41,120 bases of DNA from a candidate division WS1 bacterium (lineage in GTDB: Bacteria > Armatimonadota > Zipacnadia > Zipacnadales > Zipacnadaceae): NCBI GenBank assembly GCA_012523355.1, contig JAAYIR010000163.1, forward strand, positions 1-41,120, written 5' to 3'. Position 1 is the stretch's first letter; each line of letters opens with the position of its first letter. The notes under the pieces are model-generated. The model had not been told where the DNA came from. It ran no database searches and saw only the letters and a program-made list of their open reading frames with translations. This document shows positions 28,046-33,238 of this stretch, piece after piece. Both the position numbers and the translations under genes were made by a program.

Positions 28046-28870
28046 ATGAAGCATCTGTGGTCAACGCTGACCCTATTAGTGATGGGGACGTTGGTGGGGC
28101 TGGTAGTGGCACCGGCATACGCGGATGAAGCCGTGACTGCGGCGCAGCAGGCGCTGGCGGCCATGCACGAATCGCTGCTCAACCCGGAGGGAACGGCGGC
28201 CCAGGAACTGGAGGGAAGAGTGGTGGCATCCGAGCCGGCAGCTTTCGCCGAGGCGAATACGCTGGCGTTGCTGCAGTTCGTGAGCCTGCTGGGGCTGCAG
28301 ATAGCGCCCACCGCAGTAATGTCCGAGGAGGGCGCCACTGCGAGTGTGACGGTGGACCCGGAGCCCCTCAAGCTGGTGATGGTGAAGCAGGAGGACCAGT
28401 GGAAGGTGGACTTGAAGGCTACTCTCGAGGCCCTGCCCGAGGCGACCCGGGCGGCGCTGGAGCGCATGGTTCAAGCGGGGCAGCCGGGCGATGATCAACC
28501 TCAGGCGTCTGAGGCTCCGGGCACAGTCAGCGAAGTCACCGACGAGACTTTCGGGGACAAGGTAACGCGGGCGACAGGCTGGGTGCTGGTGGACTTTGGC
28601 GCAGACTGGTGCCCTCCGTGCAAGGCGCTAGAGCCGGTACTGAAGGAACTGGCGCCGGAGTATACCGGCAAACTCACGTTCTTGTCCCTGGATGTTGACG
28701 GAAGCCCCGAGAGCGCACGTGCCTACAATGTCCGTGGCGTGCCCACCATGATTATCTTCCAGAACGGGCTGGTGGCCGGCCAGCATGTGGGTTACCTGGC
28801 CAAAGAGCCCCTCAAGCAGTGGATTGATGGGGTGCTGGCGGGAACAGCAGCGGCGAACGGCATCCGGTAG
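28046..28870 (+). CDS. Secreted thioredoxin-domain protein with N-terminal ~130-aa accessory domain
   Basis: Signal peptide; WVLVDFGADWCPPCKALEPVLKELAPEY...YNVRGVPTMIIFQNG; SD AAGGAGG. Confidence 0.9.
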   Translation: MKHLWSTLTLLVMGTLVGLVVAPAYADEAVTAAQQALAAMHESLLNPEGTAAQELEGRVVASEPAAFAEANTLALLQFVSLLGLQIAPTAVMSEEGATASVTVDPEPLKLVMVKQEDQWKVDLKATLEALPEATRAALERMVQAGQPGDDQPQASEAPGTVSEVTDETFGDKVTRATGWVLVDFGADWCPPCKALEPVLKELAPEYTGKLTFLSLDVDGSPESARAYNVRGVPTMIIFQNGLVAGQHVGYLAKEPLKQWIDGVLAGTAAANGIR

Positions 28871-28896
28871 GCGACGGGAGGCCGCGCTAGGGAGGG

Positions 28897-29760
28897 ATGG
28901 CGATGTCTCTGTCAGTGCGAGGGTGGCTCGCGTTGTCGGCGCTCTGTCTACTGGGAGGTCTGGCCGCCAAGGCTGAGGAGGCTCCCGCTCAACCAGCAAG
29001 CCCGGAAGCTACGGTCAGCCGCTTGCTGGAGTATTTCCGCGGGAGTGCGGTAGGCAGGTACCGGGGCGGGAACCTGGGTGAACTCCTGGCGCCGGGAAGT
29101 GAGCAAACCCAGCTTCGGCAGTGGTACAGCTACCTGGCGGCCTATGCGCTGGTGGCAGCGGGGCGTGCGCCGGAGACGCAGATCACTGGCGATACTGCCA
29201 AGGTCGTGGTGCCGGCGCAACCGCTGACGGTCATGCTCAAGCAGATTGAGGGCAAGTGGCTGATGGACCTGCCGGCAACCCTAGCGGCCATGCCGGAGGC
29301 AACGCAGAACACGATGAAGGCCCAGCAGTGCATGGGGGCTCTGTGGCGGCTGGCGAGCGCTGTCCGGCAGTACGCAGACAAACACGAGGGCGCGCTGCCC
29401 TCGGCGGAGACCTGGCGCGATGACCTGGCCGAGGCGCTGGGCGGCGCGGAGGCGATGAGGTCCGTGCGCTGCCCCCTGGCGTCTCCCGGTGTGTCGGGAT
29501 TCGCCATGAATGAAGCTCTGAGCGGCAAGTCGCTCAAGAGCATTGACCGGCCGGAGGCGACAGTGCTGTTCTTCGAGTCGGACCGGGAGGGCCCGAACCC
29601 GTGCGGTGGGGAGGAGGCACTCGCGGCCCCTCGGCATGAGGGCGGCAACTACTACGTCATGGCGAATCTGCAGGTCAGATACAACCAGGCGCCGCCGAGC
29701 TTCACCTACGTGCAGAAGGCGCCACCACCGGTCAACGCCGGGGGTCCGCCGCCGCAGTAA
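28897..29760 (+). CDS. Secreted protein sharing the accessory domain of the preceding gene, with a pseudopilin-like C-terminal domain
   Basis: Signal peptide; MLKQIEGKWLMDLPATLAAMPEATQNTMK matches MVKQEDQWKVDLKATLEALPEATRAALERM of the 28046 product; C-term RHEGGNYYVMANLQV resembles a degenerate H-X9-DG motif. Confidence 0.65.
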   Translation: MAMSLSVRGWLALSALCLLGGLAAKAEEAPAQPASPEATVSRLLEYFRGSAVGRYRGGNLGELLAPGSEQTQLRQWYSYLAAYALVAAGRAPETQITGDTAKVVVPAQPLTVMLKQIEGKWLMDLPATLAAMPEATQNTMKAQQCMGALWRLASAVRQYADKHEGALPSAETWRDDLAEALGGAEAMRSVRCPLASPGVSGFAMNEALSGKSLKSIDRPEATVLFFESDREGPNPCGGEEALAAPRHEGGNYYVMANLQVRYNQAPPSFTYVQKAPPPVNAGGPPPQ

Positions 29761-29779
29761 CAGATCCCAGGAGGCAGTG

Positions 29780-30118
29780 ATGGCAACCGAGGAGCGCAAG
29801 CTGGTGGAACTAGCCGATGATAGTTGTGAGCGCGAGGCGAAAGGTGAGGGCTGGCGCCTGGTGGAGTTCTACTCCCAGTGGTGCCCGCACTGCCGGGCTT
29901 TTCGTCCCACGCTGGAGCGGGTGGCGTCGGAGTACACAGGGCCGGTGGGGTTCTACGCCGCGGATGTAGAGCACTGCCGGGAAGCCGCCGAGCGGTTGGG
30001 GATCATGTCCATTCCGACCCTGGTCTTGCTACGGGACGGGGAACAGGTGGAGATGCACGTGGGAGGTATGGGCGCCTCTGAACTGGTGGAATGGCTGAAG
30101 GAGAAGACGGGGGACTAG
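29780..30118 (+). CDS. Thioredoxin-like protein with CPHC active site
   Basis: MATEERKLVELADDSCEREAKGEGWRLVEFYSQWCPHCRAFRPTLERVASEY...IMSIPTLVLLRDGEQ; SD GGAGG before ATG 29780. Confidence 0.9.
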   Translation: MATEERKLVELADDSCEREAKGEGWRLVEFYSQWCPHCRAFRPTLERVASEYTGPVGFYAADVEHCREAAERLGIMSIPTLVLLRDGEQVEMHVGGMGASELVEWLKEKTGD

Positions 30119-30474: not shown

Positions 30475-32310
30475 CTATTCCGAATTCGCCCGATCTGGCT
30501 CCGAGGGCGCGATGAGCACCGCCTGGTAGAAGCCAGCAGCCACCAGGGCCTCCACGATCTTGCCTGCGCTCGCCAGGAGAGCTCCCTGGAGGCCCGGCTC
30601 GGCACTGAGGGTGATGGTGGCGTCCGCGCACCCCAGTGTTTCACAGAGGGCGACTACCACGCCGCGCGGAGGTTGGACTCCGTGAAGCGCCGTGCGGAGT
30701 TGCTCTACACTCGGAACGTCGGCTGGTTGCGCAGACAAGGGTCGAAGGTCAGCGCCCCGGCCGTCACTCGTCCAGAAGACACCGCCGCTGTGGTGGAGAT
30801 TGCTCTCGGAGGTCACCGCGAGAAAATCCTTGACGTCCATTGTCAGCGGCGCTCTTTCCACCGGTGTGTGAATGCTGATGGCGGAGGGAGTCGCATCCGG
30901 GGCCTCCACAGAGGGGGCCTGTTGCACCGGAAGCTCTTCGGGTGCCGGCGCCTCCACCGGAGGTTCCTCGGCAGGTGGAGACTCCTCTACGGGCAGAGGC
31001 TGCTCCTCGAGGGGCTCGGCGGCCTCGCTGGGGAGAGGCGGTTGCGCCGCTGCGACGGTCTCTTGGGCAGGGGGTTCGCTGACGGGCACTTCTGGCCCGG
31101 CCTCGACTTCGGGTGCGGCCGCGGGCACTGTCGTTAGCGTCTCGGAGGTCTCCGGGGCCAACTCCTGCTCGTAGAGTTGAGGCTCTTCCTGGAGTTCCTC
31201 CTCCTCGATGGGGGTCTGGGCGGCACGCTCAGCAGCGGCCTTGCGGAGGGCAGCCAGGGTGTCGTCGAGCGCTGGGCCTGGCTCGGCAGATTCCGGCGGA
31301 GCCTCTTGCTCCTGGGTCTCCACCTCCTCCAGATCCGCCTGCTGGTCGGCGGTACGCAGTTCCGCCTCGACCTCCTCAAACTCCGGCGACTGCTCGATGA
31401 ACCACAGTCCGCCAGCACCGATGGCATCAGGGTTCTTGGGGAGACGTACGGCCACGAGAATGGGATAGCCGCGCGCACTCTCGCAGTCGGGAATGGGGAC
31501 CCATTCTTCCTCTGCGGCAACCTTACGCCGCATACGCATCCCCAGCAGGCGCATGTTCAAATTGCGGTAGTTGTAGTGCTGGCCTCGATGGTCGGGGAAG
31601 GCCTCGCAGACCGTACATCCCATCATGTCGTCCGACCCCCCAGTCTCCGTATCAGGAGCCAGCTGTTCTTCGGCTGTCTCTTCTTCATCTAGACTCCAAC
31701 TGGTCCCGAAGAGGTCGTCTTCTGCGGTTTTCGGTTCTGAGGGCGCAGTCAGCGGCGCCTCGGTGGGGACCTCGCTGCCAGGCTCCAGGGGTGGAGGCCC
31801 GAGTTCAGCCTCGAGAGAGGTCCCAAGTTGCGGCTCGCCCTCGCCGGAAGTCTCGGCAGTCGGCGCTTCTGCGGCGGTGTCGGCAGGGATCGCTTCCTCC
31901 GCAGGGATTTCCTGAAGCAAGTCCTCCAGAGCTTCTGACTCGGGAGTGGCCTCCAACTGATCTTCAGGTTCTGCGGCTGGCTCGGGCGCAGTCTCCTGAA
32001 TGAGAATGATGGTGCTGCGACCCAGGCGAAGCTTCACTCCGGGGTTGAGAACAGCAGGTTCCCGGAGCCGGGTACGTGCGATGAAGGTACCGTTCATGCT
32101 ACCTTCATCGGCAACCATCCAGTCGGTGCCCTGCCGGAAGAGGCGAGCGTGGAAGCGGGAAACCAGGCGGTCGCCAGCCAGGCACAGATGATTGGCGGGA
32201 TCGCGCCCGATAGTGAACTCATCGCCTTCGATGAGCATCTCTCGTTCGCCGTCCTGCTCGCTTCTCACCAACAGCTTGCTTACCGGGGGCGTGTGACCGG
32301 ACGCACCCAT
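30475..32310 (-). CDS. FHA-domain protein with acidic/Pro-rich linkers, a CxxC/HRGxHY module and a conserved C-terminal domain
   Basis: FHA: FTIGRDPANHLCLAGDRLVSRFHARLFRQGTDWMVADEGSMNGTFIARTRL; module GCTVCEAFPDHRGQHY...; C-term PSVEQLRTALHGV...ITLSAEPGLQGALLASAGKIVEALVAAGFYQAVLIA. Confidence 0.85.
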   Translation of the reverse strand: MGASGHTPPVSKLLVRSEQDGEREMLIEGDEFTIGRDPANHLCLAGDRLVSRFHARLFRQGTDWMVADEGSMNGTFIARTRLREPAVLNPGVKLRLGRSTIILIQETAPEPAAEPEDQLEATPESEALEDLLQEIPAEEAIPADTAAEAPTAETSGEGEPQLGTSLEAELGPPPLEPGSEVPTEAPLTAPSEPKTAEDDLFGTSWSLDEEETAEEQLAPDTETGGSDDMMGCTVCEAFPDHRGQHYNYRNLNMRLLGMRMRRKVAAEEEWVPIPDCESARGYPILVAVRLPKNPDAIGAGGLWFIEQSPEFEEVEAELRTADQQADLEEVETQEQEAPPESAEPGPALDDTLAALRKAAAERAAQTPIEEEELQEEPQLYEQELAPETSETLTTVPAAAPEVEAGPEVPVSEPPAQETVAAAQPPLPSEAAEPLEEQPLPVEESPPAEEPPVEAPAPEELPVQQAPSVEAPDATPSAISIHTPVERAPLTMDVKDFLAVTSESNLHHSGGVFWTSDGRGADLRPLSAQPADVPSVEQLRTALHGVQPPRGVVVALCETLGCADATITLSAEPGLQGALLASAGKIVEALVAAGFYQAVLIAPSEPDRANSE

Positions 32311-32431
32311 GCTTCATCTACACCTGCCTAGTGGTGCATCTGGGAAGACGTCACTGGCCGGCAGACTTGTGTGTCCGCCCGTCGCGTCGCCGCCCGACGG
32401 CCAGTATCTCTGCAGCGCCGGGTCACCAAGC

Positions 32432-33238
32432 CTAGACGTGCGCCAGCAGGACTTCGTCGTAGACGCCGCCTTGGACCAACAGGTCCACGATCTGCCCTGT
32501 GCTGATCAGCAACTTGCCCTGCTGGCCGGGCGGGGCAGAAAGGGTGATCCAGGCCTCGTTATCAGTCAAGGTTTCGGTCAGGCGGGCCATGACGCTGTCT
32601 TCGGCGCGGAAGCTTTTGAGTGCAGCCTTGAGCTGTTCCACGCTGGGGCTGGGGCCCGAGCCGGGTAGCGCCCGGATGTCTACGTCCAAGCCATTGATAG
32701 CCCAGGAGAGATAGCCTCTCGTCCCTTGTGCCATGTGTCGTTCCTCCTCCTTGGGGAGCGCGACCAGATTCTCCGGCTCCGGCTCAGCCGGAGCGGTCCC
32801 AACAGCAACGGTCTTTGGTTCCGATTCGCTCGGAACCGGAGTAGATGCAGGCGCCGGTGGTTCCGGCTCAATCTCGGCGACAGCCACCTCTGCCTCGGCC
32901 GCGGCAGGTGGCCTGGGAGGGATCGGTGTTTGCTGTAATGAGGGGACGAAGGAAGCCGCCGGACGTTCCGGTTCCGGTGGCCCCGTGTCCTCCATCAGCG
33001 GTCCCTTCTCCTCCAGTAGCCAAATTCCTCCCACGCTTCGCGCGTCAGGGTCTTCAGAGAGATGGGTTGAGACCAGGATTTGCCGACCTGCAGCAGTGAA
33101 GCAACCGGGCAGCGGCATCCAGCGGGTGCGGCCCAGAGAGCGTACGCGCTGCGAAAAAAGCAACGTGGTTACGTCGCGAGCCGTGTAGTGAGCCCCTCGA
33201 TGTCGTGGGAACGCCTCGCATGCCACACAGTTATTCAT
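32432..33238 (-). CDS. Hypothetical protein with CxxC/HRGxHY module and conserved C-terminal domain, paralog of the adjacent FHA protein
   Basis: MNNCVACEAFPRHRGAHY...; C-term PSVEQLKAALKSFRAEDS...WITLSAPPGQQGKLLISTGQIVDLLVQGGVYDEVLLAHV; ATG 33238 preceded by GGTGATGAAGAA. Confidence 0.8.
   Translation of the reverse strand: MNNCVACEAFPRHRGAHYTARDVTTLLFSQRVRSLGRTRWMPLPGCFTAAGRQILVSTHLSEDPDARSVGGIWLLEEKGPLMEDTGPPEPERPAASFVPSLQQTPIPPRPPAAAEAEVAVAEIEPEPPAPASTPVPSESEPKTVAVGTAPAEPEPENLVALPKEEERHMAQGTRGYLSWAINGLDVDIRALPGSGPSPSVEQLKAALKSFRAEDSVMARLTETLTDNEAWITLSAPPGQQGKLLISTGQIVDLLVQGGVYDEVLLAHV

Follow-up and report, generated by a model that had tools for sequence, protein, structure and literature searches.

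Two undescribed domain families and a conserved putative internal translation start in a predicted signalling locus of Candidatus Zipacnadia

As a rule, internal in-frame translation starts come to light through ribosome profiling or N-terminal proteomics of bacteria in culture. In the T3SS, the gene encoding SpaO/SctQ also gives rise to a short form of the C-terminal 101 residues, which binds to the long form and probably lends stability to the complex (PMC13059759). Cas11 originates from an internal in-frame methionine of cas8 or cas10 and acts as a small subunit of a complex (PMC11899642). The effector-associated domains (EADs) and bacterial Death-like adaptor domains of conflict systems, in turn, are small domains repeated on neighbouring genes, for which homotypic coupling has been predicted (PMC8195603). 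Here, comparison alone points to an internal start in a putative signalling gene of uncultured sediment bacteria, the class Zipacnadia having been described from anoxic marine sediments (PMC10290634).

The window, which denotes the whole stretch of 41,120 nt that was analysed, belongs to a 3.24 Mb MAG. A preliminary description, made from the letters of the window, had drawn attention to two open reading frames sharing two conserved blocks. Both frames were found where that description had placed them, and they lie on the minus strand, which it had not given (Table 1). P0002 follows downstream of P0001 on the same strand after a gap of 121 nt; P0001 and its counterparts in other genomes are referred to as the first gene. 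The sharing of the blocks was borne out, as block 1 is identical at 33 of 80 positions (41%, E 1e-21) and block 2 at 43 of 94 (46%, E 2e-18). The acidic and proline-rich character claimed for the P0001 linker was likewise recovered, and the linker is disordered in the predicted structure. P0002 does carry the canonical FHA domain ascribed to it, with 54.3 bits to PF00498 (curated cut-off 20.7) and the GRD, SRFH and NGT motifs all present. It also matches the NCBIfam FhaB/FipA equivalog at E 1.7e-18, but the 67.2 bits of this match remain below the curated cut-off of 125 bits. Absent from the preliminary description was the conserved Met-Ala behind a Shine-Dalgarno (SD) sequence that opens block 2 of the first gene. 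Just past P0002, thioredoxin-like genes with CPPC and CPHC motifs occupy the opposite strand.

Table 1. Features of the gene pair and of related loci. Positions refer to the window unless a locus (L) is named; E in SD entries denotes the duplex energy.
Feature	Position	Strand	Remarks
P0001, first gene, 268 aa	32432..33238	-	block 1, disordered linker, block 2
Block 1 of P0001, residues 1-78	33005..33238	-	C-x2-C-x5-H-x3-H module; predicted compact domain
Linker of P0001, residues 79-168	32735..33004	-	acidic/Pro-rich; disordered in model
Internal SD of P0001, AAGGAGGAGG	32743..32752	-	8 nt before ATG; E -12.1
In-frame internal ATG of P0001 (M169)	32732..32734	-	followed by GCA
Block 2 of P0001, residues 169-268 and stop	32432..32734	-	also predicted as free 100-aa product
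P0002, 611 aa	30475..32310	-	FHA, linker, block 1, long acidic linker, block 2
FHA domain of P0002, residues 33-97	32020..32214	-	PF00498, E 1.9e-14
Block 1 of P0002, residues 229-308	31387..31626	-	opens with ATGATG behind GGGGGG
ATGATG opening block 1 of P0002, with GGGGGG (31636-31641)	31624-31641	-	SD duplex E -10.0
Block 2 of P0002, residues 507-605	30496..30792	-	without comparable internal start
Thioredoxin-like genes	28046-30118	+	CPPC, CPHC
FHA-block 2 gene of G041	L027:6131-7126	-	TGA a few residues short of the usual block 2 end
Block 1-PAS-histidine kinase gene	L036:3981-5408 (G000:C140)		third block 1 copy in the genome of the window
GKRY-type neighbour copies	L030:7701-8030, L031:5487-5789, L032:1464-1865, L034:5957-6259, L035:7569-7871		about 100 aa

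The suspicion that neither block falls into a named family held up: both were searched against Pfam, NCBIfam, PHROGs and PADLOC with nothing above noise, profiles of both found no credible match among PDB sequences at E <= 0.001, and block 2 had 0 matches to the PADLOC models of known anti-phage defence proteins. Within the phylum Armatimonadota, block 2 occurs in 11 of 291 genomes and block 1 in nine, all of the latter in the window's own family (Candidatus Zipacnadia). A profile scan of contigs from 84,980 species returned six loci, apparently all in genomes already counted. As judged from these searches, blocks 1 and 2 are two undescribed, lineage-restricted domain families, close to orphan.

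In the model of full-length P0001, blocks 1 and 2 are each well predicted, the linker is not, and block 1 reaches a pLDDT of about 86-96 over most of the domain. Block 2 alone is predicted at pLDDT 92.9 and pTM 0.84 with a beta-beta-alpha-beta-beta-alpha-beta topology, and the short product would therefore be a complete domain. The Foldseek search proposed in the preliminary description, run with P0001 against the PDB and viral models and with block 2 alone against the PDB, gave no match at E <= 0.001. Resemblance was limited to generic small alpha/beta folds such as Prp and permuted S6, from which no known binding mode of block 2 follows at this threshold. Two candidate relatives of block 2 were dropped, namely a T3SS ruler (5cuk) at E 0.18 and TRADD-N, likewise a small alpha/beta domain, which is not among the 50 PDB matches listed for either model.

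Block 2 is opened by an in-frame ATG in all 11 first genes, and in the nine that carry block 1 the Met-Ala start is invariant. Furthermore, in each of these nine genes a spacing of exactly 8 nt separates AGGAGG or GGGGGG from the internal ATG downstream, the sequence of the window being AAGGAGGAGG-AACGACAC-ATG-GCA, and the linker that precedes the ATG can barely be aligned between genera. Duplex energies were computed with an anti-SD assumed to be canonical, the 16S gene not having been found in the MAG. On this basis, the internal site is stronger than the assumed own start of the gene in 10 of 11 cases, including P0001 (-12.1 versus -9.7). Summed over seven separate lineages, which were chosen after the pattern had been seen, the energy amounts to -71.0 kcal/mol. 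For codons drawn at random from these genes the sum is -24.1 +/- 6.9 kcal/mol, with none of 200,000 draws as low as the observed value, and synonymous-codon shuffles that keep the protein give -51.3 +/- 6.9 kcal/mol (P 0.0012). Since the shuffles already come this close, part of the SD strength is due to the amino acids. An energy of -10 or lower is found at 9/11 block 2 starts versus 7/132 other internal ATGs taken from the first genes and 16 window genes (Fisher 1e-8; seven lineages 4e-5), and internal ATGs of the other window genes reach it in 7 of 95 cases. AGGAGG-type sites are also used by other genes of the window. Among the first genes that encode a phosphatase in place of block 1 (see below), the SD is weak in G021 (E -6.4) and moderate in G041 (-8.5).

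Further signals lie at the level of codon choice. The second codon is GCA in nine of the ten cases with alanine versus 21% elsewhere (P 8e-6, relatives not thinned, in a test likewise set after the pattern was seen). In addition, the GC3 of the eight codons after the ATG is 0.41 versus 0.73 in the rest of block 2; it is lower in every one of the 11 genes, and the dip departs from synonymous choice with P 1e-5 across the seven lineages. Five FHA-block 2 genes served as an internal control, and none of them has a boundary ATG with a comparable SD or shows the GC3 dip. An ATG near the boundary is present in two of the five, with SD energies of -3.3 and -1.5, and one of the control genes has a GTG with -9.5 that lies 22 codons before the conserved motif. 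What chance can give is illustrated by M82 of P0001, a further, unconserved ATG with an SD energy of -9.3; Glu-rich linkers do yield SD-like sequence. The frame of the linker is free of stops in 11/11 first genes and the other two frames together contain stops in every one, for which reason the full-length protein is, on this coding evidence, real. The first gene thus probably has two products, the full-length protein and block 2 as a free chain of about 100 aa, and translation of the short product appears very likely. In P0002, block 1 opens with ATGATG behind GGGGGG (Table 1); M229 may be a second internal start, observed for this gene alone, which would give a block 1-block 2 form without FHA.

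The same signals could be a relic if block 2 was once a separate gene that became fused in frame to an upstream one, so that only the full-length protein matters now. In fact, block 2 looks like a whole gene, complete with SD, ATG, GCA, a start of low GC3 and its own stop, and it sits behind two unrelated N-terminal domains. A relic is nevertheless considered quite improbable, since ATG, SD and the 8-nt spacing have stayed in place though the linkers turned over past clear alignment between genera, and since synonymous sites vary widely even within the genus (28 synonymous and 31 other changes over 84 block 1 codons between L028 and L030). Moreover, the FHA-block 2 fusions carry no such trace. 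Chance would have to build on acidic linkers being encoded by GAG-rich, SD-like DNA, with the conserved Met-Ala serving the protein only, and the mean of the synonymous shuffles, about -51 kcal/mol, speaks for some such contribution. However, the observed sum lies past this null, GCA at the second position and the GC3 dip are codon-level signals of their own, and the model of the full-length protein predicts disorder around M169, at residues 142-170, which together make chance a very improbable account. An internal start in use is therefore the preferred reading.

The first gene differs between lineages in its N-terminal domain. In G021 (same order) and G041 (same class), both of which lie outside the window's family, it encodes a dual-specificity phosphatase followed by block 2, with an FHA-block 2 gene next to it; the phosphatase domain is of the PTP-SAK/DSPc type and its HCVGGIGRTG motif is intact. 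Two genus-mates of the window have a block 1-block 2 gene together with an FHA-block 2 gene, and block 1 inside the FHA gene is seen in P0002 only. Overall, the first gene is accompanied by an FHA-block 2 gene in 5/11 genomes and was not found in the assembled, in some cases incomplete, parts of six family genomes with the first gene. Because of the FHA-block 2 gene in these five genomes and the phosphatase in the place of block 1 in two, the locus would seem to belong to phospho-signalling. A relative of the G021/G041 phosphatase occurs in 24 of 31 class-mates outside family f1 and in 0 of 15 genomes inside it, on the strength of which block 1 and the phosphatase can be said to hold the same slot in the locus. 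At ten loci of the relatives' stand-alone phosphatases, a motif search detected no FHA neighbour, with ORF picking that recovered the phosphatase itself in five.

P0001 clusters with the phosphatase fusions in the tree of block 2 (92/94), where the first genes also stand apart from the FHA genes, albeit weakly (73/78); forcing all block 1 genes into one clade is at the border of rejection (p 0.050). The tree agrees with, but does not prove, replacement of the N-terminal domain in front of a retained block 2. The TGA that ends the FHA-block 2 gene of G041 early (Table 1) reflects either a true truncation or an assembly error. Several family genomes also have a conserved neighbour of about 100 aa near the first gene (GKRYRT..A.LLASD..GRNTFLFRT), which matched no Pfam family and, for the two copies tried, no NCBIfam family. 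It has no match in the window's genome in a search run without a positive control, and for this reason it is not counted as a required part.

Across 11 copies of block 1, C4, C7, P11, H13, G15, H17, W40, P44 and I54 are invariant. The preliminary description had proposed C, C, H, H and C as plausible metal ligands and had regarded loss of these residues in homologues as contradicting its proposal: C4, C7, H13 and H17 are kept in 11/11, whereas C46 is serine in two copies (G014 and a histidine kinase) and is ruled out as a fifth ligand. This kinase, a PAS-histidine kinase with block 1 at its N terminus, is encoded directly downstream of a lon-like gene on another contig, C140. Sensor or regulatory domains are commonly found at the N terminus of histidine kinases. 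Given that block 1 heads the kinase, sits inside the FHA protein and precedes block 2, it is most simply taken as a sensor or regulatory domain, and metal binding by it, as suggested by the ligand set, is somewhat favoured. An enzyme, maybe a hydrolase with a Cys/His active site, would suit the position of block 1 in the slot of a dual-specificity phosphatase beside FHA-block 2, the absence of that phosphatase from every genome of family f1 and the invariance of C4, C7, H13, H17, W40 and P44. It is judged unlikely, as block 1 also heads the PAS-histidine kinase, its C-x2-C-x5-H-x3-H pattern resembles a metal site, and Foldseek matched it to no enzyme at E <= 0.001.

Domains shared by two partners that otherwise differ usually point to coupling, as in the EAD principle (PMC8195603). 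As block 2 is common to both partners of this two-gene unit while their other domains differ, there is an even chance that it couples the two proteins. The locus would be an intracellular signalling module specific to this lineage, a reading that is preferred as a whole by a modest measure. Block 2 would be the small alpha/beta coupling domain on both partners, one of them an FHA protein that reads phosphothreonine and the other with an N-terminal domain that is a dual-specificity phosphatase in some lineages and block 1, a Cys2His2 domain with probable metal binding, in others. One mRNA would yield the full partner and, through the second translation start, free block 2 of about 100 aa. Block 2 domains would bind each other, the free copy most likely at the same partner surface, and its effect could take either direction: a stoichiometric part of the complex, comparable to T3SS SctQ/SpaO, or a competing cap that restricts the number of FHA proteins brought together with active partners. 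The six genomes in which FHA-block 2 is missing suggest that block 2 may also serve in ways other than coupling to FHA. The preliminary description had instead suggested that the FHA domain of P0002 binds phosphothreonine, either in P0001 or in a substrate of a kinase. The full FHA signature agrees with this, as do two Ser/Thr kinase domains that a survey recovered in the window's genome, but both kinases lie on contigs other than that of the window and an FHA-block 2 partner is missing from six homologous loci, so that such recruitment seems doubtful.

With the coupling model in mind, the locus may tentatively be regarded as a phospho-signalling scaffold not known beyond Candidatus Zipacnadia and the other members of its class. 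In it, a new coupling domain would join an FHA reader to exchangeable partners, a phosphatase or a new Cys2His2 sensor, and a gene within a gene would supply free coupling domain that sets the amount of the complex. The comparison names two undescribed domain families. The more interesting part is the conserved internal start, which persists across lineages with different N-terminal domains and hints at how the stoichiometry of a signalling complex could be adjusted in these bacteria.

Compared with described systems, P0002 shares an FHA domain with FhaB/FipA, but scores below the cut-off, and the FhaB model contains nothing equivalent to blocks 1 and 2. The PTP-SAK/DSPc phosphatases are matched at the N terminus of the first genes of G021 and G041, in contrast to the window copy, which has block 1 there; block 2 lies outside those families. 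Like EAD and Death-like domains, block 2 occurs on neighbouring genes with different other domains; unlike them, it is predicted to be alpha/beta, has no PADLOC match and lies beside no recognised NTPase or caspase. Cas11 is a further parallel in working, through its internal in-frame start, and is unrelated to block 2 in sequence, fold or context. In the case of T3SS SctQ/SpaO, the N-terminal domains differ and the loci read contain no recognised secretion genes; homology to the C-terminal domain of SctQ found no backing in Pfam searches of 15 block 2 members or in PDB sequence and fold searches at E <= 0.001. What is alike is the arrangement, here predicted, of one gene with two in-frame products of which the short form is the C-terminal ~100 aa. 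SpaO/SctQ would accordingly appear to be the closest functional parallel, by a likeness in working and not in descent.
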